Below, in pieces: positions 2 to 13,704 of a stretch of 64,000 nucleotides of DNA. Source of the stretch: Pseudomonadota bacterium (GTDB taxonomy: Bacteria > Desulfobacterota > Syntrophorhabdia > Syntrophorhabdales > Syntrophorhabdaceae). The stretch is taken from NCBI GenBank assembly GCA_026388315.1, contig JAPLKA010000084.1, positions 1 through 64,000 of the forward strand. The letters run 5' to 3'. The notes beneath the pieces were generated by a model. It did no database searches, was not told the DNA's origin, and saw only the letters and a program-made list of their open reading frames with translations. Numbering within the stretch: the stretch's first letter is position 1; each line of letters opens with the position of its first letter. The translations under genes and the position numbers were made by a program.

Positions 2-1288
2 AGAGGCGACATCGAGGATAACAGCACAATAAACTTTGATGCTGCCATGGATGTTTCAGGTGTTGAAAGAATCGCTCCTCTCTTTTTTTTTGACAGCAAA
101 ACCACTAAAGGTGAACTCGAACTCAATGTGGTAGTGAGAAGCTTAAAGTTCCCCGTAAAAAAGCTACCATACATAAACGGATATGCAAAGATACGCAACG
201 GCATTTTAAAACTGCCGCAGATGCATAAACCATTCGAAGATATCAACCTCACATCAACCTTTCAAGGTGATAACTTTAATATTGATGTGAATAATTTAAA
301 GTTTGACAAGAACATTCTCAACACCGGAACACTCCATGTCGAAGGGTTTGAATTCCCCCGTTTTTCCCTCTTTATCAACATGGATAATTTTGAATACGAT
401 GATTTACAACCTGCCGGAGACTTTGAAATTCCCGTGGTTTATAAGAACAGTATAATGTCGAATGCAAGCGGCGACATATTCTTGCGGACAAAAAAGATAA
501 AAATAGGCATTGTAACGGGCGAAAACCTCAACATCAAAGGAGCATTCAACAATAGAATACTGAATGTTTCTGAATTGAAGATGGATTCTCTTGAAGGTAA
601 TGTGGATTCCCATGGTTCAATAGATTTTTCAGCCCCGCTCCCGCATATGTATGCAAATGGAAAATTGAACAACATTGCGAGTGGGGTTTTTCTAGAATCA
701 TTTGGTGGAAAGTCACAGGTAATAGAAGGCAAAACAACTATATACGGGCATATAGACTCATCAGGAAAAACTATGAAAGAACTGTCCGGCAATATAAGCG
801 GTGATCTTGCCATATACAGTCAAAATGGGTTAATAAAGCGCTGGAATCTGCTCTCGAAGATTTTCGGACTCCTCAACGTATATGACGTCTTCCGGGGAAA
901 ATCCGACCTGGCAAAGGAGGGTCTTCCGTATACAAGGATGGGTGCAACTTTTTCAATAAAGAATGGTATATTCAGCACAAAAAACTTCCTTATAGACAGC
1001 CCCTCCATGCTGATTAACGGTGACGGTAAACTGAACATGAAAAAGAATGAAATAGACGGTACCATTACTGTATCACCCCTTGTGACGGTGGACAGAACAA
1101 TAGACAGGATACCCATCCTGAGGAACATCCTGAAAGAAAAGGAAAAGGGGTTTCTCTATGTAGTGTATAATGTAAAAGGCCAGTTAGACAACCCTGATAT
1201 TAATGTCAGCTTTACGAACAGTGTGGGGCATAAAACCATTGAAATTTTGAAGAACATATTAGTGCTGCCGAAAGGAATGTTTGAATGA
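2..1288 (+). CDS. AsmA-like C-terminal domain protein (5' end cut off)
   Basis: The frame is open from base 2 with no start or stop before the first internal ATG at 47, so the gene begins outside the window. The visible 429 codons are beta-rich and low in cysteine. The end resembles the AsmA/YhdP C-terminal region: a repeat-like segment around TFSIKNGIFSTKNFLIDSPS, then a conserved tail with VTVDRTIDRIPILRNIL. Family members span the periplasm or are anchored in the inner membrane and are linked to lipid transport or outer-membrane assembly. The function here is inferred from that resemblance only. The stop overlaps the next gene's ATG (ATGA), which suggests co-transcription. Confidence 0.7.
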   Translation, partial: RGDIEDNSTINFDAAMDVSGVERIAPLFFFDSKTTKGELELNVVVRSLKFPVKKLPYINGYAKIRNGILKLPQMHKPFEDINLTSTFQGDNFNIDVNNLKFDKNILNTGTLHVEGFEFPRFSLFINMDNFEYDDLQPAGDFEIPVVYKNSIMSNASGDIFLRTKKIKIGIVTGENLNIKGAFNNRILNVSELKMDSLEGNVDSHGSIDFSAPLPHMYANGKLNNIASGVFLESFGGKSQVIEGKTTIYGHIDSSGKTMKELSGNISGDLAIYSQNGLIKRWNLLSKIFGLLNVYDVFRGKSDLAKEGLPYTRMGATFSIKNGIFSTKNFLIDSPSMLINGDGKLNMKKNEIDGTITVSPLVTVDRTIDRIPILRNILKEKEKGFLYVVYNVKGQLDNPDINVSFTNSVGHKTIEILKNILVLPKGMFE

Positions 1289-2172
1289 GAAACTGGGGTC
1301 TAAATGATTCAATGAAAATAGGCATAATAGGCGCGGGCAAAGTGGGTACATCCGTCGGGCATGTGATGAAAGACAAAGGGCTTCATGTGGTGGCGGTATC
1401 TGATAAATTTGAAGCTCAGCTCAATGTTGCAAGGAACTATATGGGCAATGGGTTACTCTATACCCATGACAACATGGAAATCATCCAATCTTCAGATGTA
1501 ATTGCCATTACCACCCAGGATAGGGCAATTACAGAGGTGGCAGGCGAAATATACGAGAAATCGGAGAGGCTTGACGGTAAACTCTTTTTCCATACAAGTG
1601 GCGCACATCCGGCTTCTATTCTTTCACCACTTGATATGAAAGGGGCTCTTTTAGGCTCCCTTCACCCTTTACAGACCTTTCCTGATATTGAGAGTGCAAT
1701 CCGTGTTATCCCTGATACATATATATTTATTGACGGTCATGAAGAGGCAATTCCTGTTTTAACCCTTATAGGCAAGACAATCGGCTTTGATGTTGTGAGG
1801 ATAGAAGGGAAAAACAAGGTTCTCTACCATTTATCAGCGGTCTATGTATGCAATCTTTTGTGCGCCCTCCTCTATGCAGGACAGGACATTATGAATAAAG
1901 CCGGTGTGGAGCTTCAACCGTTTTTCCCTATCATAAAGGCCACATTGAAAAATATTGAAACCAAAGGTCCTCTCATGTCACTCACCGGTCCGGTCATCAG
2001 GGGTGATGCAGAGACCGTTTTCTCCCACCTCCAGGCGATGGAAGGCCTTGAACTCTATACAAAGGTCTACAAAGCCCTCTCTTCGGTAGCGCTTGATATG
2101 GTCAGGAAGAGAGGTGTGCTTGATGATGAGATACTTGAGAAGTTGCGGGAAATACTGGATAGTGAAAGGTAA
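1285..2172 (+). CDS. Rossmann-fold / DUF2520 oxidoreductase
   Basis: A 295-aa protein with an N-terminal dinucleotide-binding motif IGIIGAGKVGTS (about residues 12-23). It is followed by a ProC/F420-type Rossmann domain with SLHPLQTFPD near residue 125, typical of the Rossmann-like plus DUF2520 family. The C-terminal half is helical, as in 6-phosphogluconate dehydrogenase-like folds, and includes the conserved LYHLSAVYVCN segment. The family probably reduces or oxidises a small metabolite with NAD(P); the substrate is unknown. The ATG at 1285 overlaps the upstream stop and has AAGGA eight bases before it. A second ATG at 1312 (MKIGIIG) is also possible and matches the usual family start better. 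Confidence 0.8.
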   Translation: MRNWGLNDSMKIGIIGAGKVGTSVGHVMKDKGLHVVAVSDKFEAQLNVARNYMGNGLLYTHDNMEIIQSSDVIAITTQDRAITEVAGEIYEKSERLDGKLFFHTSGAHPASILSPLDMKGALLGSLHPLQTFPDIESAIRVIPDTYIFIDGHEEAIPVLTLIGKTIGFDVVRIEGKNKVLYHLSAVYVCNLLCALLYAGQDIMNKAGVELQPFFPIIKATLKNIETKGPLMSLTGPVIRGDAETVFSHLQAMEGLELYTKVYKALSSVALDMVRKRGVLDDEILEKLREILDSER

Positions 2173-2916: not shown

Positions 2917-2981
2917 GGGTAACACCAGGCATCAGCCAGAGGCCGGCTTTATGGCCGATTCGCTGCATCCATTCGTTATGT
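2917..2981 (-). other. attC site A
   Basis: Left box GGGTAAC (weak) and right box GTTATGT flank a hairpin core TCAGCCAGAGGCCGG / GGCCGATTCGCTG. It lies between the stop of the membrane-protein gene (3071) and the ParD-like start (2825). It belongs to the same sequence family as sites B, E, H and I. Confidence 0.7.
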
Positions 2982-3070
2982 GCGTCTACTATTTACCTTT
3001 TCTTTCATCTTGGCATCAAACTTTTCTTTGATGATAATGACCCGCTCGTGTTTCGGTACAGTCCGGTCAC

Positions 3071-3688
3071 TCAGTTTCTCTCCTCTGCCTTTTCGTGTTC
3101 ATGCTGCAGCCGCTTCTGCCTCTTGAAGAGCATGGTGAACGTGAGGCCCGTTAGAATTATGCAGAGAGTAGCATCGAAGTACACCCACCCCGGTAAGTTG
3201 ATCATGGAGCTTCGCCGAAGAACAGACAGCCCGGCCGACAGGGACATAAGGCACGCCCAAACCAGGGTGATGAGGCGACACCCTTGGATAAACTTTGGGT
3301 CGTTCCATCGTTCTTTGGGCACGTCTCTTCGGGCATACTGCAAAGCAAATGGCTTCCCCACCAATATGGTTAGCCACATGGTGCCGGCAAGTGCGGTGTT
3401 GGCCAATAAGTCCATGTTGTCTGCCACCCAGACCACCTTGAAGAGATTCACGAGAACAACGCAAAAGCAGAAAAAAAACAACGTTCCCCACTGAAGAATA
3501 TAGCCCCGTCTCAGTTCACCAAACCCGAACACGAGGGACGCAAAAAGACTTACAATTATGGCGCGTTCCAGGCTCATCAAGGTGTGACCAGCAAAAAAGA
3601 GAAAGAGCATCCAGGGAACAAAACCAAGTAGCAAAACACCGAGTTCTTTTAAGTCGCGCATATACCCTCCAAGAGATTTTGTAGTCAT
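3071..3688 (-). CDS. Unknown integral membrane protein, cassette-borne
   Basis: A 205-aa protein that I do not recognise. It contains about five or six hydrophobic segments, for example LGVLLLGFVPWMLFLFFAGH near the N-terminus, AIIVSLFASLVFGFG, a long run around GTLFFFCFCVVLVNLF, and a C-terminal FDATLCIILTGLTFTMLF. A basic, charged tail (KRQKRLQHEHEKAEE) follows. The arrangement of short helices resembles septation-protein-A or small inner-membrane proteins, but no diagnostic motif is seen. An alternative start is M10. It fills one cassette between attC sites B and A. Confidence 0.6.
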   Translation of the reverse strand: MTTKSLGGYMRDLKELGVLLLGFVPWMLFLFFAGHTLMSLERAIIVSLFASLVFGFGELRRGYILQWGTLFFFCFCVVLVNLFKVVWVADNMDLLANTALAGTMWLTILVGKPFALQYARRDVPKERWNDPKFIQGCRLITLVWACLMSLSAGLSVLRRSSMINLPGWVYFDATLCIILTGLTFTMLFKRQKRLQHEHEKAEERN

Positions 3689-3700
3689 GTTCTAAGGCCA

Positions 3701-3763
3701 GCCCAACACAAGCGTCAGCCAGAGCCCGCTTTCCGGGCGATTGGCTGTATGCCTTTGTTATGC
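3701..3763 (-). other. attC site B
   Basis: A perfect left box GCCCAAC and right box GTTATGC are 63 bases apart end to end. The core CAGCCA-GA-GCCCG / CGGGC-GAT-TGGCTG folds into two stems separated by an unpaired spacer and an extra T, as expected for an attC bottom strand. The upstream antitoxin gene stops inside it. Confidence 0.9.
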
Positions 3764-4041
3764 CATTCTTGAACGGATACTTTCCCTTCGTTGTATTTAT
3801 GAATAAGCATCGAGATGAGGGATTGATAGGGGAGACCTTCTTCAATCGCCTTTGCCTGGATTTTCTTTAGGTCTCGCTCGGTCATTCGGATGTTGATCCT
3901 TTTCTGTTTGGTCAAGCTATTGCGGGCATATTCCTCATACTGCTTCTTTTCTTTCTTGGTGAGATCGGAAACCCACTCTTCGGTTTCAAGCGACCTTGAT
4001 AGTTCCATTTCATCTTTATCAATATATTCTGCTTTTTTCAT
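3715..4041 (-). CDS. CopG-like antitoxin, pair 1
   Basis: A 108-aa protein with an acidic N-terminal half, a basic KRINIRMTERDLKKIQ segment (about residues 49-64), EEGLPYQSLIS and IHKY. This is the ribbon-helix-helix pattern of CopG-type antitoxins paired with BrnT-like toxins. It follows the toxin gene with a four-base overlap (toxin first, antitoxin second, as in brnTA). The last ten or so codons (after HNKGI) run into attC site B, so its C-terminus is written by the recombination site. It is a clear paralogue of the protein at 4444-4728. Confidence 0.75.
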   Translation of the reverse strand: MKKAEYIDKDEMELSRSLETEEWVSDLTKKEKKQYEEYARNSLTKQKRINIRMTERDLKKIQAKAIEEGLPYQSLISMLIHKYNEGKVSVQEWHNKGIQPIARKAGSG

Positions 4042-4316
4042 CTTTTTCCTCCTAAGCGCTTCTTCGTTGCCTTGCTGTTGGGTATTATTGTTTTTAAGAA
4101 TATTTTCTCACCATCCTCAACATACGGCACCGAATAGATATAGTCCTCGATCTTCACCAAGAATATTCTCTGATTCGGGTATTTCTCCGGGTTCGGATGC
4201 CTTATGCGGTCAACCAGATCTCCCGAGACAATAGCCAGTACAACTTGTTCAAACGACACTCCGCGCAGTTTTTTGAGCAACTCATTTTTGTCATCATTCC
4301 AGTCATAATATTTCAT
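4038..4316 (-). CDS. BrnT-like toxin, pair 1
   Basis: A 92-aa protein starting MKYYDWNDDKNELLKKLRGV, with SFEQVVLAIVSGDLVD, HPNPEKYPNQRIFLV and EKIFLKTIIPNSKATKK. The D-x-x-K-N start, the G-V-S-F-E block and the late strand resemble BrnT, a RelE-fold ribonuclease toxin. The usual family length is about 90 residues. It overlaps the antitoxin start by four bases. The region upstream to attC C (4317-4384) would hold the promoter. A DUF4258-type annotation is an alternative label for the same fold. Confidence 0.7.
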   Translation of the reverse strand: MKYYDWNDDKNELLKKLRGVSFEQVVLAIVSGDLVDRIRHPNPEKYPNQRIFLVKIEDYIYSVPYVEDGEKIFLKTIIPNSKATKKRLGGKR

Positions 4317-4384
4317 AAAAGTGTGCCTATTGTATTCTTCTTATAGAGTAGCCGAGTTTGATGCTTCTGTCAATCATTTTGAAG

Positions 4385-4446
4385 GCATAACGGGAAGCTA
4401 AGCCGGAGCGGCCCAAGGGGCCACGATTGGCTCCAGCGGCTTATTA
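4385..4446 (-). other. attC site C
   Basis: The left box GCATAAC is followed by the core AAGCCGGAGCGGCCC / GGGCCACGATTGGCTCC. The right box is degenerate (CTTATTA instead of GTTRRRY). It sits between the antitoxin stop at 4444 and the next toxin start at 4316, exactly where a cassette junction is expected. Confidence 0.75.
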
Positions 4447-4728
4447 AGCCTTTTTTCTCTCGATAAGATATCCGGAAACATACTTATGAATGATACTGGA
4501 TACCAACGTCTGGTAAGGTATGCCCTCTTGTACCGCGATAACCTGTACTTGATCCAAGTCTTTTGAAGACATGCGAATGTTTATCCGCTTGTCTTTTTGC
4601 AGTGTATTTTTTGCATACTGCTGGAGCTTCTTGATTTCCTTCTTCGCATTCTTAACTGGTACCCATTCTCCACGTTCATATGATTCAAGGATATCTTTTT
4701 CCTCATCATCCAGGATTATCTTTTTCAT
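4444..4728 (-). CDS. CopG-like antitoxin, pair 2
   Basis: A 94-aa paralogue of the antitoxin at 3715-4041: KRINIRMSSKDLDQVQ, QEGIPYQTLVSS and IIHKY align directly. The N-terminal part is acidic (LDDEEKDILESYERGEW). It overlaps the toxin gene by four bases and ends in attC site C. It probably binds the toxin through the N-terminal or C-terminal extension and DNA through the ribbon-helix-helix, repressing the operon. Divergence from pair 1 is large enough that cross-neutralisation is uncertain. Confidence 0.75.
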   Translation of the reverse strand: MKKIILDDEEKDILESYERGEWVPVKNAKKEIKKLQQYAKNTLQKDKRINIRMSSKDLDQVQVIAVQEGIPYQTLVSSIIHKYVSGYLIERKKA

Positions 4729-5003
4729 TTCTTTTCCCTCACATACTTGTTTGTAGCTTTTCTGCTAGGTATAATTGTTTTAAGAAATATCTCTTCATTG
4801 TGTTCAACATAAGGAACAAGATATGCGTATGCATCAATCATTAACACAGCAATTTTCTGTCCTGGATACCTTTCTTGATTTGGATGTTCAATGGTATCGA
4901 GAACTTCACCTCTTTCCATTAGCAGGACAACTTGCTCAAAGCAAACGCCCCTATTGTTCTTTAACAATTCATTCTTTTCATTGTCCCATCTGAATATATT
5001 CAT
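4725..5003 (-). CDS. BrnT-like toxin, pair 2
   Basis: A 92-aa paralogue of the toxin at 4038-4316, with the same length and frame of conserved blocks: RWDNEKNELLKNNRGVCFEQ, HPNQERYPGQK and EIFLKTIIPSRKATNK. It is the first gene of a two-gene cassette whose upstream boundary is attC D. Two adjacent cassettes with homologous pairs suggest either cassette duplication followed by divergence or independent capture of related cassettes. Confidence 0.7.
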   Translation of the reverse strand: MNIFRWDNEKNELLKNNRGVCFEQVVLLMERGEVLDTIEHPNQERYPGQKIAVLMIDAYAYLVPYVEHNEEIFLKTIIPSRKATNKYVREKK

Positions 5004-5059
5004 ATGCTTATATTACGACAACGTGTGCCTTATGTCAATATATTTTTGTGGCTTTTTTG

Positions 5060-5112
5060 GCATAATCGCCATCACCCAGAGCGTAGCGATTGGGTGTATG
5101 GGGTGGTTATGT
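5060..5112 (-). other. attC site D
   Basis: The left box GCATAAT and right box GTTATGT enclose TCACCCAGAGCGTAGCGATTGGGTG, a shortened relative of the common core of this array. The 53-base site lies between the amidohydrolase stop (5163) and the BrnT-like start (5003). Confidence 0.75.
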
Positions 5113-5162
5113 GGAGTTTTTTGTTGTTTTTTCCGTGTCAATAATGCCTCTGTTTTCACAGG

Positions 5163-6251
5163 TTACTTACTTTTTAAAAACGCCCCCTTGGTCTCTACTG
5201 CTTTCCGAAATTCAAATGGCTTGGACTGCTTGAACTGCCCCGTGACATCGCCTACCCGATCAAGCTCGTTCACCAGATCGAGCTTCAAAACCGGGCTGCC
5301 CTCTTTTAACTGCAGCTTATCGAGATAGACCCAGATGATGTTCGGACTTATTGTAGACTCGAAGTAATAGGCCCGCTTGGTAAGATCGGCCACCGTCCGC
5401 CAACGAGTGGAAGAAATGTTGGGCCTTAGCGGGTCGGAAACCCCAAAGGGCGCTGACACGTTTCGCATCACACTCAGCAGGTACGCAATCGTTTCGCGCT
5501 TGTTTTCCGGCTTGGGCAGGCTTTCCAGATATCGCGCAGCACGGACGAAGCGGTCAGGGGACTGCTCTGAACCGGGCAAATCCTTAGCACCACCGAACGG
5601 CTTGTATTGCTTGAGGTTGGCAAGCTGTTCATCGAAGGGCGGCGAATTTGTCATGACCGTGTACTTGCGATCGTGATAGATTTTGGGCCTGCCATCGATG
5701 TACTCGATCACGGCCGAGTCTCCCGTCGCATCAGCCAGTGCTAAATGCCCGGCTGCTACTCTGTTCGTCGAGCCCATAGGGCCTGTGACTATCTGGAACG
5801 GTTTTGTTTCAATGAATCTGACCGCATCTGCCACAGTCTCGAAGCTATCCAGGAAGTATTGGGTTGCCAGGGTGAAGGATATGCCGGGGATGGACTCATC
5901 TCTCTTACCGTAATCCGACTCCGCCAGCCATAGCGGGTTGACGGCCAAACCTTTCTCGTTCATACCGTCAACAGTCATGATATTGTAGCCCGAAGCTATC
6001 AGGCTCCCGTACTTCGACGTCCACTTGAGCGAATTCTTGCCGACTCCGCCATCTCTCTGGATTCCCCGTGGAAAAACCCAGAGGTCGGTCTTCATGTCTT
6101 CGAACCAGTCCATATTGCGGCCGACTACGATTGCTTGTCCATTGTTGTTCCACAATACCCTGGAACAAGGATATACGGGGCAAACAAACAAGGCCAATAA
6201 AATCAGGGCCATTAAACATGCACTCCATAATTGTTTTTTTAGATTGCTCAT
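5163..6251 (-). CDS. Exported linear-amide C-N hydrolase (Ntn, PVA/CGH-like)
   Basis: A 362-aa protein of the choloylglycine hydrolase / penicillin V acylase superfamily. The start at 6251 has GGAGG five bases upstream; the longer frame to 6440 would read through attC E. A hydrophobic signal segment (about residues 10-24) ends before PCSR. Cys29 would become the N-terminal nucleophile after cleavage. VVGRNMDW follows near residue 43, as in the family, where Cys, Asp, Asn and Arg form the active site. Substrates in the family include penicillin V, bile-salt amides and acyl-homoserine lactones; none can be assigned. As integron cargo it could detoxify an amide antibiotic or quench signals (inference). 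Confidence 0.8.
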   Translation of the reverse strand: MSNLKKQLWSACLMALILLALFVCPVYPCSRVLWNNNGQAIVVGRNMDWFEDMKTDLWVFPRGIQRDGGVGKNSLKWTSKYGSLIASGYNIMTVDGMNEKGLAVNPLWLAESDYGKRDESIPGISFTLATQYFLDSFETVADAVRFIETKPFQIVTGPMGSTNRVAAGHLALADATGDSAVIEYIDGRPKIYHDRKYTVMTNSPPFDEQLANLKQYKPFGGAKDLPGSEQSPDRFVRAARYLESLPKPENKRETIAYLLSVMRNVSAPFGVSDPLRPNISSTRWRTVADLTKRAYYFESTISPNIIWVYLDKLQLKEGSPVLKLDLVNELDRVGDVTGQFKQSKPFEFRKAVETKGAFLKSK

Positions 6252-6283
6252 GTCATCCTCCTTCTTCATATGGTTATCTTTCT

Positions 6284-6352
6284 GCCTAAAACACAAAGCT
6301 GAGCCAGAGGCAACGCTCTTTGTTGCCGATTGGCTCCAGAGATTTGTTGGAA
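6284..6352 (-). other. attC site E
   Basis: The core CTGAGCCAGAGGCAACG / CGTTGCCGATTGGCTCCAG forms a long hairpin. The left box is GCCTAAAAC-like and the right box GTTGGAA. It lies 33 bases upstream of the amidohydrolase start and downstream of the gene-less cassette. Confidence 0.75.
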
Positions 6353-6525
6353 CTTTTTTGCCTCTATCTGCTTCTCCATGTTTTTGTTTTATTATATCTT
6401 CTATTCCGTTTTTTGTCTTTATTCTTATCTCAACTTTCAATAAGATGAAAACCTGCCATTTTCAAGAACCTTCCTTTTTACCTTCCTGTACTCAAATAAA
6501 GACATTTTTCAAAAGGTTTCCAAGA

Positions 6526-6546
6526 TTATATTCACAGTGAATATAA
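6526..6546. repeat. Perfect 21-base palindrome
   Basis: Arms TTATATTCAC and GTGAATATAA flank one central A. It is the first of three such palindromes inside a gene-less cassette; the core CACAGTG recurs at 6634-6640. Confidence 0.75.
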
Positions 6547-6604
6547 ATAATATATGATTGTTCAAGCCCAAGCCTGTATTGACTTTACAGAGATTTCCTG
6601 TTTT

Positions 6605-6621
6605 ACACCAACAGTTGGTGT
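6605..6621. repeat. Perfect 17-base palindrome
   Basis: ACACCAACAGTTGGTGT has eight-base arms about a central A. It is followed directly by TAGCGCTA and then by the palindrome at 6628-6646. Confidence 0.75.
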
Positions 6622-6627
6622 TAGCGC

Positions 6628-6646
6628 TACAGACACAGTGTCTGTA
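6628..6646. repeat. Perfect 19-base palindrome
   Basis: TACAGACACAGTGTCTGTA has nine-base arms about a central A. Together with its neighbours it could form a protein-binding array or a cruciform. Confidence 0.75.
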
Positions 6647-6680
6647 ATCGCCAAAAATAATCTGAAATCGAATTTCTTTT

Positions 6681-6736
6681 CCATAACGCAGAGTTGAGCC
6701 GGAGCGTTAGCGATCGGCTCCAACGACTGGTTGGCC
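6681..6736 (-). other. attC site F
   Basis: The left box CCATAAC and right box GTTGGCC enclose GTTGAGCCGGAGCG / CGATCGGCTCCAAC, 56 bases in all. The VapC gene stops inside it at 6707. Confidence 0.85.
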
Positions 6737-7147
6737 AATATATTCAACATGAAGACCTGAATTCTTTGCAGCCATAAATTGCCTTATGTCAGACGTTATA
6801 AACAAGTCAGCCCCCCATTCAAGGGCACATGCGACATGAAGAGAGTCCATAGCGCGTAACGCATTGTTCTCCAAGAGTTTTACCGAGCGCGAGACTACTG
6901 AAGGTGTTATATGCAAAACCGTTATATCGCTGACATCATTCAACAGTTGTTTTTTTACGGCACGATAATCAACAAGAGTTAAAATATTTTCTCTCAGTCG
7001 CCTATTGAGGCCAGAAATAATTTCGGGCACCAAAACAACAGAGAAAGCTAACTCCGAAGCATCTTCCAAGAAACATTCCAGTTTTTCGCTGCCGATCTCT
7101 TGCACATATCTTTTGGCAAACGATGATGAATCAACTGCAAGCTTCAT
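6707..7147 (-). CDS. VapC-like PIN-domain toxin
   Basis: A 146-aa PIN-domain protein with MKLAVDSSSFAKRYVQE (Asp6 as first acidic residue), NALRAMDSLHVACALEWGA and LFITSDIRQ. These give the expected three or four Mg-binding acidic positions of a PIN ribonuclease. It starts four bases before the antitoxin stop and stops within attC F, so its last ten residues are encoded by the recombination site. VapC toxins cleave tRNA or rRNA; the target is not predictable here. Confidence 0.85.
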   Translation of the reverse strand: MKLAVDSSSFAKRYVQEIGSEKLECFLEDASELAFSVVLVPEIISGLNRRLRENILTLVDYRAVKKQLLNDVSDITVLHITPSVVSRSVKLLENNALRAMDSLHVACALEWGADLFITSDIRQFMAAKNSGLHVEYIGQPVVGADR

Positions 7148-7377
7148 GGGGTCATCTCACGCTCTTCTAAGATAGCCGAAGATAAATCGCTTCCCTGAAT
7201 GCGCAGACGGATTCCTGGTTGCTTCCATGCCGGGGATCTGTGTACTTTATCAGAAAACGGGACTACTTCCGCTACGGGCTTTCCGCGCCTGAGAAGAATA
7301 ATTGTCTCTCCATGTTCTACCTCAGTTATTAAATCTGAAGCCTTTTTACGGAAATCTGTGAATGCAACACTTTTCAT
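7144..7377 (-). CDS. Phd/YefM-type antitoxin
   Basis: A 77-aa protein: VAFTDFRKKASDLITEVEHG, ETIILLRRGKPVAEVVPF. This is the classic Phd/YefM fold start that binds DNA as a dimer and autoregulates. A well-placed AGGAGG-like site precedes the ATG at 7377. It overlaps the PIN-toxin gene by four bases, and the toxin-binding tail is the C-terminal third. The pairing of a Phd-type antitoxin with a PIN toxin is common. Confidence 0.85.
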   Translation of the reverse strand: MKSVAFTDFRKKASDLITEVEHGETIILLRRGKPVAEVVPFSDKVHRSPAWKQPGIRLRIQGSDLSSAILEEREMTP

Positions 7378-7447
7378 TTACGCACCTCCTAATGTGTACA
7401 TTCAACTGTACATTACAGGTGGTATTTTGTCAAGATTAGATTTTTAT

Positions 7448-7538
7448 GGCCAACGGGGAGCTGAGCGGTGGCACGACCCTGCTCACACCAAAGGTGTGAC
7501 TGCAGAGGGAGTGACAACGTTCCAGCGTTTTGTTAGGC
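7448..7538 (-). other. attC site G (long)
   Basis: The left box GGCCAAC and perfect right box GTTAGGC are 91 bases apart end to end. Internal pairing includes TCACACC / GGTGTGA and GGGAGCTGAGC opposite a complementary tail. It is longer and less related to the common core than other sites here. Confidence 0.6.
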
Positions 7539-7767
7539 GGACCGCTGGTAGCGGTACGCCGTGCCCGTAAGGGCAACAAATCGATGAGAGCGTAGCTCAG
7601 CTCCACGTAAGGCGGACGAGGAACCGAGCGGATCAGCGAACGCAGTGAGCAGCGAGGTGACGAGAGCGTGGAGGAGCGCCCATTGCTTTTAATTGCTTTT
7701 AATTGCCTTTATTATGCCTTTATCATTCATAATATTATCCGGGCGCGACTCAAGCGGTCCGCCTTAC
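7532..7767. repeat. Gene-less cassette with 15-base inverted ends
   Basis: GTTAGGCGGACCGCT (7532-7546) and AGCGGTCCGCCTTAC (7753-7767) are inverted repeats with one mismatch; they include the right box of attC G and the left box of attC H. A third partial copy (GTAAGGCGGAC) lies near 7608. The interior is GC-rich to about 7680, then AT-rich, with no plausible gene. It could be a non-coding cassette or a small insertion that mimics one. Confidence 0.5.
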
Positions 7768-7823
7768 ACGGGGATCAGCCAGAGCCTGATTTTTAGGCGA
7801 TTGGCTGAATCCATTGGTTATGC
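7761..7823 (-). other. attC site H
   Basis: The left box GCCTTAC and right box GTTATGC enclose ATCAGCCAGAGCCTGA / TAGGCGATTGGCTGAAT, nearly the same core as site B. It lies about 100 bases beyond the stop of the gene ending at 7927; 7824-7926 shows no feature. Confidence 0.85.
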
Positions 7824-7926
7824 TGTCTTTCCATTTCATGTCCTTTGTCACCGACTGATGTCTGTCTTTCTCCAAATGTCCAAATTTACCCACGCCCCTT
7901 TGGCCCCCTGTAGCCTGTTGTATTAT

Positions 7927-8469
7927 TCATACTACAATGAACTTAACATTATAGTTTTTCCACAAAGAATTTATCAGAGCTTGTTCTTTGTCAGCACTTA
8001 CAGAGCTTTTAATATCCTGTGCTGGCGTTGTGTCCACCAATAGATAGATTATGAAATTGAATTGTGTCGAATAAACAAGTGCTTGACCGATACCAGAGCG
8101 TAAGGATTGGCCAGAATCTCCTTTTTTTAACTCCATGGCAATTCTAAGCTTCTCGTTTATTTCCAGTACAGAATCGGGATGATGATTTGTCGCGAAGAAA
8201 TTAAAACTTGGAACTGGGGTAGCAATTTTTTGTTCCCATTTAAAGCCTTCCTTTACAATTCTTGTTGATTTTTTTTCCGAAAACCCAAAATGACTCGACA
8301 GAATGGATGGCAATTCTCTTTCCAACTGAAGGAACAGCATCATTTGAATTTGCCTTTCGGAATTGTGTTTTAGACTTACAATCTTTGCAAAGATTTCATT
8401 CTTTTCCAACGATGATATTATTGCATTCACCAAAGAAGATTTTTTTCGTGTTTGAGCGGTTTTTTTCAT
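7927..8469 (-). CDS. Unknown protein with PD-(D/E)XK-like motif
   Basis: A 180-aa protein that I do not recognise by family. The segment NHHPDSVLEINEKLRIAMEL followed by KKG gives P-D, a spacing of about 13 residues, and E-L-K. QSLRSGIGQALVYSTQF then forms a helix and strand. This is the layout of the PD-(D/E)XK nuclease core. The N-terminus is basic (KKTAQTRKKSS). If the motif is real it could be a nuclease or restriction-related cargo protein; function is inferred from the motif alone. It lies between attC sites I and H. Confidence 0.65.
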   Translation of the reverse strand: MKKTAQTRKKSSLVNAIISSLEKNEIFAKIVSLKHNSERQIQMMLFLQLERELPSILSSHFGFSEKKSTRIVKEGFKWEQKIATPVPSFNFFATNHHPDSVLEINEKLRIAMELKKGDSGQSLRSGIGQALVYSTQFNFIIYLLVDTTPAQDIKSSVSADKEQALINSLWKNYNVKFIVV

Positions 8470-8570
8470 ATGCCTTCCTTTTTCAACGTGGGATATTGCG
8501 TAACTATCCTGTCCCTATATTTGTTGTCTAACTCAATTGGCCCCTTCGATACATCTCCTCTATTGCTGTG

Positions 8571-8634
8571 GCATAACAAAGAGCTGAGCCAGAGGCAGGT
8601 TTTATTGCCGATTGGCTCCAGCGTCTGGTTCGAC
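8571..8634 (-). other. attC site I
   Basis: The left box GCATAAC and right box GTTCGAC enclose GAGCTGAGCCAGAGGCA / TGCCGATTGGCTCCAGC. The site sits between the GIY-YIG stop (8640) and the next start (8469). Confidence 0.85.
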
Positions 8635-8639
8635 GGTCC

Positions 8640-9374
8640 TCAAAAGATGCGACGCCAACGTTTGAAGGCACGCACATCATCGGCTGTCAGTGCGAACCAC
8701 TCGTTCTTCATACGCTTATCCGTAAACCTACGATGCCAATAGACTTCAACCCCTGCGGGATCATCTGTCTCGATGACATGAATCGGCTCGATCTTCTCCG
8801 GAAGCTCAATGCCTATCTCACCTTCCCGTCGTAGTTGGTTATTTGTGCGACCGATTTTATACTCCCGACGAGAGCCATGTTTCAGAAGATAGACATAGCC
8901 AACAACAATTTTACCGCTCGACGCAACATCATCATTGTCCACCGGCAAATGCGCACGGAGGTAATCCTCACAATGCTCAACCACGTCGTCGAAGCCTTGT
9001 AGTAAACGGCAATGCTCAATGAGTTTCTTGGCCAAATCTGTTTTGGTTCCTAATCGGCCAAAGGTTCTCGAGCTTGGGAATTCGGGATCGCTCCGGCGCT
9101 TCAGGCGAAGCTCGCCTTCAGTTGGTAGCTGCCCCAATTCTCGGGTATATTCCGCATATTTTTCAAGAAGCAATTTGATATCGAAAGCTGTGTTGAATTC
9201 ATTCGCGATAAACCCTGCCTCCCGAACTGCATCACCCCATTTTGCCCAATGGACGCCGAACCAGTCTGTTCGTTTGATTCCAGTTTCTGCCTCGAAACGT
9301 GCCTCGCCCAACGGGGCACCGCCGTTGGCAGCTGCCGTGCGGGTAATCTCGTTAAGAATATGTAGCTTCTTCAC
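8640..9374 (-). CDS. GIY-YIG nuclease-family protein
   Basis: A 244-aa protein. The C-terminal half shows VGYVYLLKHG (about 160-169), EYKIGRTNN and VEVYWHRRF, ending EWFALTADD. This is the pattern of the GIY-YIG subfamily called T5orf172/Mug113, with Tyr, Lys/Arg and a late Glu as active-site candidates. The N-terminal half has helix-rich repeats (RTDWFGVHWAKWGDAVREAG; LLLEKYAEYTRELGQLPTEG) like DNA-binding modules found with homing endonucleases. Such proteins occur in defence islands and as selfish nucleases. It is cassette cargo between attC J and I. Confidence 0.8.
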   Translation of the reverse strand: MKKLHILNEITRTAAANGGAPLGEARFEAETGIKRTDWFGVHWAKWGDAVREAGFIANEFNTAFDIKLLLEKYAEYTRELGQLPTEGELRLKRRSDPEFPSSRTFGRLGTKTDLAKKLIEHCRLLQGFDDVVEHCEDYLRAHLPVDNDDVASSGKIVVGYVYLLKHGSRREYKIGRTNNQLRREGEIGIELPEKIEPIHVIETDDPAGVEVYWHRRFTDKRMKNEWFALTADDVRAFKRWRRIF

Positions 9375-9392
9375 GTTTTACCTCTGTCGTCG

Positions 9393-9496
9393 AATCGGGG
9401 CAGTTAAGCCGTGCCCCGAAGGGGCATCGGTCTTCAACTCCTTGTTCTCCCGAAGCGGAGCGACGGGAAGGAGTTGACGGCTTAACTGCCCCGATT
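9393..9496. repeat. Nested inverted repeat
   Basis: The outer arms 9393-9412 and 9477-9496 are perfectly complementary over 20 bases and contain GTTAAGC and GCTTAAC. Inside are a GCCCCGAAGGGGC hairpin (9413-9425) and a second pair TCAACTCCTT / AAGGAGTTGA (9433-9442, 9468-9477). No gene fits inside. The boxes look like cassette ends in the wrong order for a single attC. Confidence 0.75.
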
Positions 9497-9518
9497 CTCC
9501 CGGCGCGAAGCGCCGGGA

Positions 9519-9572
9519 GAACAACGAAATCAGCCGCGAGTGTAACGAGTCGGCTGCATTGCTTCGTTGGAC
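9519..9572 (-). other. attC site J
   Basis: The left box GAACAAC and right box GTTGGAC enclose ATCAGCCGCGAG / CGAGTCGGCTGCAT. It touches the stop of the DUF2971 gene at 9573. The core differs from the main attC family of the array. Confidence 0.75.
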
Positions 9573-10232
9573 CTATGTTTTCCACAAATGTACAGTTTCG
9601 AAATCTTTCTTTCGCACGATATTGAAAGAGCGAAACGCTAACCTTGCCTTTATGACAGCCAACTTTGAGGTTTTAGGCAAGGAATCTTCTATTTTCTGAA
9701 TTGGAATATCACAAAGAGGACCTAAGACAATGCCCTTTAAGCTTATGTCTTTTCCAAGTTCATAGAAGTACATATCCCCTTCCTTATGGCACTCAGATTT
9801 CCTCAATATTACACGGACCTCTTTCTCGTATTCCCATTCAACGTATTTTGTAAGCCATAAGCCTTCAATGTCTTCCCTATCTAAGCCCGTCGTGAGCTTT
9901 TCATAATTTAAGGAATACCGGTTTATTCTATACGCGATGGGATGAGCAACACTGTCCGAGACGTAGAACTCAAGGGCAACCCCTTTATGTCGATTAGCAT
10001 AGTGGCTCCACAATAATGGACTTTCCCAATTCTTGCTAAAGCAGAGTATTCCATAGTCTCTCGCCATAGCACTTTTAAATTCTCTGATCTTTTTCCTAAA
10101 TTGTCTGTCTGGCAACTCCACTGCGTTAAGCTCAAAAGGATCATTTAAGTCGTCAAGCAATGAGACTTTGAGCCTCTGAGCAGCTACCACATCTAACGCA
10201 TGTTCTTCAGGTATGAAATGAAACAATCTCAC
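9573..10232 (-). CDS. DUF2971 protein
   Basis: A 219-aa protein with LLDDLNDPFELNA near residue 26, GILCFSKNWESPLLWSHYAN near 60-79 followed by RHKGVALEFYV, and EWEYEKEVRVIL near 133. This is the conserved pattern of DUF2971. The biochemical role of the family is unknown, though it is frequent in accessory and mobile regions. It is flanked by attC K upstream and attC J directly at its stop, so it is one cassette. Confidence 0.8.
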   Translation of the reverse strand: MRLFHFIPEEHALDVVAAQRLKVSLLDDLNDPFELNAVELPDRQFRKKIREFKSAMARDYGILCFSKNWESPLLWSHYANRHKGVALEFYVSDSVAHPIAYRINRYSLNYEKLTTGLDREDIEGLWLTKYVEWEYEKEVRVILRKSECHKEGDMYFYELGKDISLKGIVLGPLCDIPIQKIEDSLPKTSKLAVIKARLAFRSFNIVRKKDFETVHLWKT

Positions 10233-10261
10233 ATGGTCTCCAGATGATTATGACTTCACTA

Positions 10262-10322
10262 GTCTAACGACCACATAACCCGCAGGGGCTTTATCCCTGT
10301 CGGGTTGATGTGTTTGTTATGG
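10262..10322 (-). other. attC site K
   Basis: A perfect left box GTCTAAC and right box GTTATGG enclose CACATAACCCGCAGGGG / CCCTGTCGGGTTGATGTG, which fold back well. It lies between the stop at 10397 and the DUF2971 start at 10232. Confidence 0.85.
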
Positions 10323-10396
10323 GATCTTTTATGAAATATTATAATGAAGACCTCCTGCTTTTAAAAATGCGAGCATATATATTAGAACAGTGTTTT

Positions 10397-10855
10397 TTAA
10401 GAATGGCCACCATTGTAGATTATGATAAATATAAAAATTGGATTGAGAAGAGTCATGACAATAACAACCTTATCAAGAACAAAAAGCAGCCGACTATATC
10501 GCTTTATTGTCTTCGGTTTTTTGCTGTCATCAGGTTTATCGGGCACAGTATTGAACAGTTCGGAAAACGCCTCATTAAGTTCTCTTGTCTTTTGCCCGGT
10601 GGTGTCAATAAAGGATTGCCTCATTTGGTAAATGAGAACCACAATACCAACAACCGGAGTAAACGAAAGCACAAAATAAGGAATGATAAACGGAGAGTAA
10701 AGAGAAGGCTTAATGGCAACCATGATTGAAAATGCCGTAATCAATATGCCGTTGAATGTCAGCAGGGAATTATATAAGAGATGATGCAAACTCTCCGCAC
10801 TATCAGCATTGTATTTGAGCGATTCAAGTATGTTGTTAATTTTATCTATACCCAT
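10397..10855 (-). CDS. Small membrane protein of unknown function
   Basis: A 152-aa protein that I do not recognise. A helical N-terminus (KINNILESLKYNADSAESLH) is followed by two adjacent hydrophobic helices (about residues 32-48 and 55-76), a charged central loop with KTRELNEAFSELFNTVPDKP, and a third helix at the C-terminus (VVIVMTLLNPIFIFIIIY). The ATG lies inside an attI-like GTTATG box (10853-10858), so expression may depend on sequences brought by recombination. The architecture is reminiscent of membrane effectors with paired N-terminal helices, but this is only a resemblance. Confidence 0.55.
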   Translation of the reverse strand: MGIDKINNILESLKYNADSAESLHHLLYNSLLTFNGILITAFSIMVAIKPSLYSPFIIPYFVLSFTPVVGIVVLIYQMRQSFIDTTGQKTRELNEAFSELFNTVPDKPDDSKKPKTIKRYSRLLFVLDKVVIVMTLLNPIFIFIIIYNGGHS

Positions 10856-10867
10856 AACAAGTTATTA
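10853..10867 (-). other. Second attI-like core site
   Basis: CATAACAAGTTATT here is identical over 14 bases to the site at 12143-12156. Two inverted boxes (AATAAC and GTTATG on the minus strand) are separated by TT, the layout of an attI simple site. The start codon of the downstream gene is part of the box. It may be a duplicated attI left by tandem duplication or irregular cassette insertion. Confidence 0.5.
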
Positions 10868-10871
10868 TGAG

Positions 10872-11543
10872 TCATACCTTTGTCCTTGCCATGAATTCGG
10901 TAACAGCCATGCACATCATTTTTACCTGCTCTGCATTGTATTGTTCGTAGGCACCGTGCGCAGCTTTGTTGCGCAAATCTAACCAGGCCGTGACGTTCTT
11001 CTGATCCAGCTTGCCATATACGCCCTTTTTCGCCAGCTCAGTGTTTAGGAAATCTGCCTTCAGGGGAAGTGCCTTTCCGGTCTTATCGTCACGAGTGGTA
11101 TCTATTGCATTTCTGACGGATAGCTCTCTTAGGTGCTGCTCCAGAACACCACCAGCCATTACGGCAGAAGCGTCCTTGTACCCCTCGGTAAGAAGATACT
11201 CCGCCATTTCCAGAAAACCGGAAAACACTTCTGAAGCAACAATTCCTTTGAGAGAGGAAAGCCAGCCAGACTCAATTTCGTTCTTTGCAGCTTTGATTAT
11301 TCCGATACCCCATTTTGCCAAGGATTTGAGGGACGACGTGACCTTCTCGTTGAATTCGCGGTAATATGGGTGGTCCTCTCCAAATACCTTACGTAGATAG
11401 GAAATACTTGACGACCTGAATTCACCAAATAGCTCGGGGGATACCCAGACAGTATGGTGTGCATCGACCATTTCCGTTGCCAGCACATCGTTGCCCAAAT
11501 CAATCAAACGTTCAGCTTCTTTGATGAGGTTGTCAGTCTTCAT
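10872..11543 (-). CDS. Unknown HEPN-like protein
   Basis: A 223-aa mostly helical protein. The C-terminal part has AGGVLEQHLRELSVRNAID and WLDLRNKAAHGAYEQYN. The R-N-K-A-A-H segment matches the R-x4-H ribonuclease motif of HEPN domains. The N-terminal half (about 1-110) has no motif that I can name. HEPN proteins act in toxin-antitoxin and anti-phage systems as RNases, or as non-catalytic partners. No adjacent MNT nucleotidyltransferase is visible. It ends 16 bases before the gene at 10855, separated by the attI-like core. Confidence 0.6.
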   Translation of the reverse strand: MKTDNLIKEAERLIDLGNDVLATEMVDAHHTVWVSPELFGEFRSSSISYLRKVFGEDHPYYREFNEKVTSSLKSLAKWGIGIIKAAKNEIESGWLSSLKGIVASEVFSGFLEMAEYLLTEGYKDASAVMAGGVLEQHLRELSVRNAIDTTRDDKTGKALPLKADFLNTELAKKGVYGKLDQKNVTAWLDLRNKAAHGAYEQYNAEQVKMMCMAVTEFMARTKV

Positions 11544-11558
11544 GTCGTTTCTTCAAGC

Positions 11559-11633
11559 TCATAACCCGTGGCTTACCGTCAAGGGCCGCCTTCTGGTCTG
11601 AGTCCGCTGTAAACCCGTGCCATGAGGTTCTAT
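11559..11633 (-). other. Possible degenerate attC site L
   Basis: TCATAAC at the left and GTTCTAT at the right flank 75 bases with weak self-complementarity and a direct repeat AACCCGTG. It is positioned correctly between the stop at 11630 and the start at 11543, but the fold is poor. Confidence 0.35.
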
Positions 11634-12145
11634 TCATGATCATTTCTATGATAAAGAATACATGATAGAACGCCAGCCAGAATTTTCCGGTGGCCTTCTT
11701 CCATGTCGTCAAAATGTAATTGGCCTCTTACTATTGCGGCCCTTATTCTTCCGGCCGCAGCTAATACCAAGTTTTTTTGTTGAATGTCACTAAGACTTCC
11801 TTGTTCAAGAATGGCCTCATAATCTTCGCCAACCCAACGACCACTAATCTTCCTCACGTTCCATCCAAGATCCGAAATAACATGCTCTGCGAGCCGATCT
11901 TCATGGTCATGATATTTCGATGGTGGATTGACGTTAGCCAACTCTGCAATAAGAACGTTTAATAGGTTTGAGCAGCTTTCTTCTTCTACGAGATATTCTT
12001 TTTTCTCATAATCCCAAATCAATTCCCAATTCGGTCTAATATGTGACAGAGGTCTTGTAACAAGATAGCCCAGATATTCACATCGATGGAAAAATGACAC
12101 TATGTCCTCACTCGGTACTTGCAATGCATCCATTTTCTTTCTCAT
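11630..12145 (-). CDS. Unknown cassette protein, first in array
   Basis: A 171-aa protein that I do not recognise. It reads as soluble and helical, with FFHRCEYLGYLVTRPLSHIR near residue 18, an acidic middle (KKEYLVEEESCSNLLNVLIA), SDLGWNVRKISGRWVGEDYE and a helical tail rich in Ala and Arg. The ATG at 12145 is inside the attI-like box, with no ribosome site; ATG at 12133 (MDALQ), preceded by a weak GAGAAAG, may be the true start. It would be the newest cassette and the closest to the array promoter. Confidence 0.6.
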   Translation of the reverse strand: MRKKMDALQVPSEDIVSFFHRCEYLGYLVTRPLSHIRPNWELIWDYEKKEYLVEEESCSNLLNVLIAELANVNPPSKYHDHEDRLAEHVISDLGWNVRKISGRWVGEDYEAILEQGSLSDIQQKNLVLAAAGRIRAAIVRGQLHFDDMEEGHRKILAGVLSCILYHRNDHE

Positions 12146-12160
12146 AACAAGTTATTCTAT
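12143..12160 (-). other. attI-like site at the head of the array
   Basis: Read on the minus strand the sequence is GAATAAC-TT-GTTATGA: two inverted seven-base boxes with a two-base spacer, as in the simple site of attI. It lies between the first cassette gene and the integrase remnant, where attI is expected. Confidence 0.65.
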
Positions 12161-12235
12161 AGTTTCTGCCTATTTCCACAAATCAATTATTCTTTCGCGA
12201 TTCTATCCAATAACAATGCTCTGATGTCCATACAA

Positions 12236-12265
12236 ATTATGGTCTTACCAACCTCTCAGTGACAA
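12236..12265 (-). promoter_or_regulatory. Candidate array promoter (Pc-like)
   Basis: On the minus strand TTGTCA (12265-12260) and CATAAT (12241-12236) are 18 bases apart and point into the cassettes, about 90 bases before the first gene. This is only a pattern match in an AT-rich leader. Confidence 0.35.
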
Positions 12266-12382
12266 CTTAAATCGTTGATATAATAATGTATAATCTCTTG
12301 ATAAACTATTTGCAATAATATTATTTTATCTTTCCGTATATCATGTCAATTTTAAGATTATATAGAAATCGGAGGATTCCGG

Positions 12383-12448
12383 ATGTTTGCTATCCCTTCT
12401 GCTTTACAGGCCAAATTTGAAGAACATTTACGGAACAAGACCGGATAA
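12383..12448 (+). pseudogene. intI: Integron integrase remnant (first 21 codons)
   Basis: A strong ribosome site (GGAGG, seven bases) precedes an ATG whose 21 codons read FAIPSALQAKFEEHLRNKT plus a last Gly before TAA. The pattern hydrophobic-P-x-x-L-x-x-x-F-x-x-x-L-x-x-K matches the usual start of integron integrases. The position and divergent orientation relative to the cassettes are exactly those of intI. After this point the sequence loses similarity; no core-binding or tyrosine recombinase catalytic region follows. I infer deletion of the rest of the gene. The piece is too short for certainty. Confidence 0.6.
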
Positions 12449-12795
12449 GAATCAGGATCGGACCAACCCCTAAAAATACTGGATTATGGAGTAGGGATTA
12501 TGGATTATCAGCCTGTTGCCCAAACATATATGCAACCAATATAATATTGAAATATGAGCCGGAAGAACTTTTTGCGAATCGCGACTTCAAGCTTCCTTGG
12601 GACCCTGCCGGTAAGCAGAAATGTGCTCGCGGCCAGTGCCGCGCCTGGGCCGGCCTGATTTGTTCGAAGCCCAGTGGCAAGTTAGAAGGCCGAATGGATG
12701 CGAACCGTTGCATGGGTAAGAAAGCGCAGGGAGCAGAGAGCAAAACAGTGTTCCGGCGAAAACCATTTTGGACAACAGGCTGTTAACACTGTCTC
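12449..12795. other. Debris region between array and cysM
   Basis: No intact gene is seen. The segment holds a short tandem (ATTATGGA-type, 12482-12510), a Tat-leader fragment (12554-12658) and an inverted pair ACAGTGTT / AACACTGT near 12746 and 12785 that may terminate cysM transcription. It is probably the scar of deletions that removed the integrase. Confidence 0.5.
12554..12658 (+). pseudogene. Tat signal-peptide fragment
   Basis: An ATG opens 34 codons starting MSRKNFLRIATSSFLGTLPV and ending AASAAPGPA, then TGA. The S-R-K-x-F-L motif, hydrophobic run and A-x-A end form a typical twin-arginine-like leader (one Arg replaced by Lys). A mature protein would have to continue in another frame, which stays open to 12786 but is not recognisable. 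It is probably the remnant of an exported redox protein. Confidence 0.4.
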
Positions 12796-13704
12796 TTACG
12801 GCGGGCATTTCGCACAGATCGACCTGAACTGCATGGTGCTGAGGTAGCGGTCACCACGGTCGGGTAGTATTACCACGATTATGCCCTGGTCTATTTTTCT
12901 CGCTATCTGGAGGGCCACTGCCGCTGCGGCGCCGCTGGATGTTCCCACGAAAATCCCCTCTCTCAGCGCAAGGAGTCTTGTAACTTCAAAGGCTTCACCA
13001 TCTTCAACCATCACTTTCTCATCCAGCATCTCCGGCTTATAAATCCTTGGAACCATCGATTCTGTCATATTCTTCAGTCCCTGTATCGTATGCCCCTGGA
13101 CAGGCTCTACACCGACAATTTTTACAGAGGGTTTCTTCTCCTTTAAATACTTTGCAGTCCCCATGAGCGTGCCGGTGGTTCCCATTCCTGCCACAAAATA
13201 ATCAACCCCGCCATTTGTCTGCGCTAAAATCTCCGGCCCTGTTGTTTCGTAGTGAGCAAGTACATTATCACCGTTATCGTACTGATTGGGCATAAAGTAT
13301 TTGCCGGGGTTCTGTTCAAGAAGTTCGTGTGCCTTTTTTATTGCACCATCAATATTCGATTTTGCCGGTGTGAGAAAAACCTGAGACCCAAGCCCTTCAA
13401 GGATTAAACGCCTCTCCATACTCACGCACTCAGGCATGCAAAGGTCAACCTTGTAGCCTTTTGCTGCTCCTATCATTGCAATTGCAATCCCTGTATTGCC
13501 TGATGTGGGCTCAAGGATGGTCTTGCCCTTTGTAAGTTCGCCGCGCTCTTCAGCCTTCTCTATCATATAAAGGGCCGGGCGGTCTTTTATTGACCCTCCG
13601 GGGTTACATCCTTCGAGTTTGCAAAGGACTTTTACACCAGGCTTGCTGACAATGTTCATGAGTTCAACGAGTGGTGTATTCCCTATTGCAGATAATATGT
13701 TCAT
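12796..13704 (-). CDS. cysM: Cysteine synthase (CysM/CysK type)
   Basis: A 302-aa PLP enzyme of the O-acetylserine sulfhydrylase family, which replaces the acetyl group of O-acetylserine (or the phosphate of O-phosphoserine in some members) with sulfide to make cysteine. PLP lysine K40 lies in GGSIKDRP, the substrate loop PTSGNTG spans 66-72, the phosphate-binding GTTGT sits near 174, and a late PDRGDRYLST is present. The start at 13704 has AGGAGG upstream. It is monocistronic on the minus strand and divergent from the alcohol dehydrogenase. The MNILSAIGNTPL start and length fit CysM better than CysK, though the two cannot be separated by eye with certainty. Confidence 0.9.
   Translation of the reverse strand: MNILSAIGNTPLVELMNIVSKPGVKVLCKLEGCNPGGSIKDRPALYMIEKAEERGELTKGKTILEPTSGNTGIAIAMIGAAKGYKVDLCMPECVSMERRLILEGLGSQVFLTPAKSNIDGAIKKAHELLEQNPGKYFMPNQYDNGDNVLAHYETTGPEILAQTNGGVDYFVAGMGTTGTLMGTAKYLKEKKPSVKIVGVEPVQGHTIQGLKNMTESMVPRIYKPEMLDEKVMVEDGEAFEVTRLLALREGIFVGTSSGAAAAVALQIARKIDQGIIVVILPDRGDRYLSTMQFRSICAKCPP

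Follow-up and report, generated by a model that had tools for sequence, protein, structure and literature searches.

We describe here an integron that has almost certainly decayed by loss of its integrase gene, with its attI site and cassette array kept and intI deleted except for the first 18–19 codons. The genome is 3.8 Mb long in 131 contigs, and the window covers the opening 64 kb of one of them, C84. The frame of interest, at 12383–12448 on the plus strand, has 21 codons and translates as MFAIPSALQAKFEEHLRNKTG*, with its ATG at 12383 and a TAA stop at 12446–12448. Judged by sequence, this frame represents the beginning of an integron integrase gene and lies divergently behind attI and the array, because the copy of the same stretch on contig C46 runs on into a 482-aa integron integrase.

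The intI remnant and its attI site

A DNA search of the genome with positions 12100–12800 matched about 292 bp of the window (12146–12437) at three other loci, C128 (95%), C125 (90%) and C46 (86%), one of which (C46) carries full intI, and in a small tblastn the stub peptide aligned with one full IntI N-terminus at 75% over 20 aa; the reading of the frame as an integrase remnant, put forward in an earlier note on this DNA, withstands both comparisons. The IntI homology begins at 12383 and breaks off at about 12437, the true remnant being 18–19 codons; the last two codons (T-G, codons 20–21) and the stop are foreign sequence. A GGAGG ribosome site at 12371–12375 (plus strand), 7 nt upstream of the ATG, is kept in C46, C125 and C128. 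The divergent orientation and the position are as the earlier note had them, with attI now located between frame and array, and the note's statement that the rest of the gene is missing agrees with a tblastn of the C46 protein that found no further intI piece in the 64-kb window. The frame thus stops after 21 codons, short of the catalytic tyrosine-recombinase domain and IntI-specific patch of a functional integrase, and the locus is not a complete integron with intact intI next to attI. Rfam found one tRNA in the window and nothing else.

The attI site and leader occupy 12146–12382 (plus strand), between the array and intI, with putative promoter-like sites on both strands. The attI core, ACAAGTTATTCTATAGTTTCTG at 12147–12168 (plus strand), is the same as that of the intact integron at C46 and recurs in the phylum with no matches to a reversed control, which supports its reading as an integron platform. 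The leaders of the attI loci diverge from each other by up to 16%. The first 60 bp of the C84 site differ from C46 at two positions, and the remainder resembles C128 (Fisher p 0.03 and 0.17), so that a mosaic structure is suggested. A conserved cassette promoter was considered and dropped, the best minus-strand site of C84 not being kept in C128, as judged by eye.

The integrase at C46 (L009:8311–9759) scores 383 bits against TIGR02249 (cut-off 265), matches PF13495 and PF00589, and reads as complete, with R, K, HxxR, H and Y present. Its usual core-binding domain is at residues 171–250, and a second, N-terminal SAM-like core-binding domain, a duplicate, lies within residues 1–163 (PF13495, 27.8 bits, residues 10–83); many relatives can be aligned across residues 1–482. 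Integrases of Deltaproteobacterial clade 15 have been described as about 120 aa longer, by fusion (PMC2426708). The earlier note's match of our frame to an IntI start pattern therefore stands as regards an integron integrase, although the type is not canonical IntI1 but rather the long Deltaproteobacterial one with the extra N-terminal domain.

The cassette array and its chromosomal flanks

The array spans about 9 kb (2918–12145, minus strand), and its main ORFs all lie on the minus strand, reading away from attI. About 11 attC-like sites share this single orientation, several of them with significant folds, as in a cassette array or CALIN. Outward from attI, and all on the minus strand, they include 10264–10326 (z −5.4), 8570–8642 (z −1.5), 7752–7826 (z −2.1), 7446–7544 (a weak fold, z −1.2), 6678–6742 (z −1.7), 6290–6358 (z −2.8), 5058–5118 (z −2.3), 4382–4452 (z −2.1), 3692–3768 (z −2.3) and, last by sequence, 2918–2990, the fold of which is not significant (z −0.3). 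Contig C109 repeats the stretch 7452–7768 with as much as 97% identity, and C96, C75 and C69 repeat parts of it. Most cassettes encode products without a family, the named ones being DUF2971, T5orf172/MUG113, PIN-domain and choloylglycine-hydrolase-like proteins. We also note toxin-antitoxin-like pairs in the cassettes at 2322–2600, 3715–4316, 4444–5003 and 6707–7147, of which the PIN domain alone is confirmed.

At 9392–9524 (minus strand) lies a geneless cassette or composite attC of about 131 bp with a strong hairpin (z −11.2). Near-identical copies are common to the arrays of C84, C46 (three copies), C128, C125 and C54, diverging by 0.7–3% where well aligned, with one gapped copy reaching 5%. 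In C46, C125 and C128 a copy is the cassette nearest to attI. Copies are located at 1955–2088, 4673–4806 and 7934–8067 of L009 (C46) and at 5716–5780 and 6261–6331 of L018; one copy in C128 is interrupted mid-way by about 480 bp. A claim that this cassette must postdate the truncation is weakened by a flank divergence between C125 and C128 that is similar to the cassette divergence.

On the chromosome the array is flanked to the left by a gene for a Rossmann-like protein (1285–2172, plus strand) and to the right by the cysteine synthase gene cysK (12796–13704, minus strand). Two dispersed repeats occupy the gap from the stub to cysK: one at 12455–12509, which stands in place of intI after the break, and a MITE-like repeat at 12508–12785 with inverted ends CAGCCTGTTGCCC..GGACAACAGGCTG. 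The MITE-like family is about 200–280 bp long, with many copies in the genome and inverted ends GGCCTGTTGCCC/GGGCAACAGGCC.

The earlier note had proposed comparison with a close relative that keeps intI at this locus, and none was found. The same-genus genome G002 has a cysK protein 95.7% identical, with homology stopping at window position 12785; past cysK it carries other sequence, with no array, until its contig ends 340 bp further on. In four genomes of other genera (G012, G027, G009 and G018, with ORFs read in the first two) the left-flank gene and cysK are 1.7–3.3 kb apart with no array between them. No stub was found in the two same-genus genomes.

Integrase-less platforms in the genome and the phylum

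The genome has four attI cores in total and one intact intI. The stub at C128 runs for 42 codons before its break and that at C125 for 24–25, and both run into a common stretch of about 270 bp; because this flank is present in full at these two genome sites only, the two platforms derive from one truncated ancestor, C125 having lost a further stretch. Their neighbours, named from translations, are a prolyl-tRNA synthetase-like gene at C128 and an SRP54-like gene at C125, and common ancestry with different neighbours means that a platform already without integrase was duplicated. Beyond the first cassette the two arrays are unlike each other.

Stubs also occur at other loci in two other genera of the family, and the breakpoints vary, at 14 codons in G020, 19 in C84, 24 in C125, 31 in G016 and 42 in C128. 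Additional stubs were found in G260 (14 codons), G414, G134 and G189. A sample of 395 genomes of the phylum was searched with attI-leader DNA and, separately, with the attI core (pattern ACAAGTTATTCTAHAGTTTCTG, one mismatch allowed, the reversed pattern serving as control); the core search gave 32 sites, spread over 21 genomes, and none in the control. Loci were retrieved for 30 of the 32 sites, and C128 was read separately. About five cores adjoin a near full-length intI (C46, G221, G083:C19, G327 and G406, with G327 ending at a contig edge and G406 containing an internal stop), and at about 27 the neighbour is a stub, a decayed piece or nothing. Among the decayed genes, G083:C46 has codons 1–92 joined to the C-terminus, G164 retains 1–38, 225–267 and 346–482, and G062:C5 retains the last 21 codons only. 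Integron decay by loss of intI proves to be common in the phylum. Eight stubs ending within the first 42 of 482 codons would have a chance of about 3e-9 under a uniform model; we do not claim selection for breakpoints near attI, since attI and attI-proximal sequence served as the anchor for sampling, and erosion down to the anchored site would give the same picture.

Some of these loci have features of their own. At G414:C33 (L078, from 1575), 25 intI codons are in frame with the rest of a 124-aa ORF for a small sulfur-carrier-like protein, and a new gene may thereby have taken over the former intI start. At G162:C36 (L144), attI cores at 1501 and 1665, 164 bp apart, flank a composite attC-like element, as though a cassette were carrying a truncated attI. 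A variant of the core, ACAAGTTATTGTATAG, is followed at G099:C12 (L128) and G134:C251 (L151) by about 900 bp that are 85% alike in both and give no intI match.

Intact integron integrases are themselves common in the phylum, with 135 of the 395 genomes above the cut-off. Several genomes with an orphan attI (for example G062, G133, G134, G162, G238, G260 and G309) have no integron integrase at E ≤ 1e-30, and retention of attI therefore needs no integrase in trans; for the same reason we rejected a general rule that an orphan attI requires one.

Loss of the integrase and its alternatives

The loss of intI at C84 was probably an ordinary illegitimate or repeat-associated event, deletion between repeats being a natural guess, and the array would have persisted because the cassettes or a still usable attI were tolerated or useful, an active integrase being costly. 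PMC3510236 deals with the cost of functional integrases. The intact IntI encoded at C46 has a matching attI, so that it could still act on the C84 attI, and cassettes may still be entering or leaving the C84 array in trans. The earlier note went further, in holding that the stub dates the freezing of the array and explains how such arrays form. Neither claim is supported: an IntI of the same attI type is intact in the genome, this array and others share a near-identical cassette, and no relative was found to carry intI at the locus, which is without an array in the four genomes of other genera and, past cysK, in G002. The dating has against it also that two of the stub loci descend from one truncated ancestor.

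There are several other models to consider. It is possible, if rather unlikely, that the C46 integrase alone serves several integrase-less attI arrays in trans, the stubs being worn edges and attI being under selection. The ratio of four attI cores to one intact intI, the near-identical geneless cassette adjoining attI in C46, C125 and C128, and the differing cassettes past the first in C125 and C128 despite their one truncated ancestor are consistent with such service, although the cassettes of C125 and C128 diverge by 3%, not clearly under their flank divergence of 5.6%, so that insertion after truncation is unproven, and orphan attI sites persist also where no IntI is detected. A broader proposition, which we regard as doubtful, is that a single intact integrase serves integrase-less attI platforms scattered over its own chromosome and that copies of such stub platforms are made at new loci, so that arrays multiply without carrying an integrase. 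We also think it improbable that the stub array reached the C84 locus, by copying or transfer, as a finished integrase-less unit after a deletion elsewhere; duplication of stub and flank after truncation in C125 and C128, the empty array site in the four genomes of other genera, and the different genes beside each stub of the family would fit such a move, but the C84 breakpoint is unlike all others and is followed by a dispersed repeat and then cysK, for which a local deletion is simpler.

Two further readings have very little to commend them. The intact ribosome site and ATG might suggest a short regulatory or leader peptide, an idea to which we give scant credence, in that stub lengths and C-terminal ends vary at every locus and the ATG is absent from many orphan attI sites. 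The genome is a fragmented draft, and a chance ORF or assembly artefact might be imagined; it is just as hard to credit, given 292 bp of specific homology with end points differing among six loci and an attI core pattern without a reversed-control match over 395 genomes. Decay of an integron by deletion of its integrase gene thus remains the reading that we prefer for C84.

Loss of intI by deletion is already known from other integrons, and C84 belongs to that kind. In the 2008 survey by Nemergut et al., pseudogenes made up about one third of the intI genes, some of them sharing a genome with a near-identical functional copy (PMC2426708), although that survey required the IntI-specific domain and a 19-codon stub such as that of C84 would have escaped its count. 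In Xanthomonas integrons downstream of ilvD, intI has been lost through frameshift, stop or large deletion, according to PMC12444791, which quotes Gillings and colleagues; as at C84 the arrays were kept, and CALINs are described there at other Xanthomonas loci. The Xanthomonas platform is at one ancestral locus, whereas the genome described here has several stub platforms at different loci and one intact copy. PMC12444791 also states that an attC array with no integrase next to it can be mobilized by a functional IntI acting in trans; C84 differs from such arrays in keeping attI and the intI start, and because these remain we attribute the origin of its array to integrase loss. What is new are the size of the stub, the occurrence of several stub platforms within a single genome, and the count anchored on attI.

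Cassette arrays without an integrase are common, and how they originate is debated; at C84 an intI relic and an unchanged attI directly show that the array arose through integrase loss. The 22-base attI core finds orphan platforms that gene annotation has overlooked. This genome, in which one integrase is intact and three attI platforms lack one, offers a natural test bed for asking whether such arrays keep evolving.
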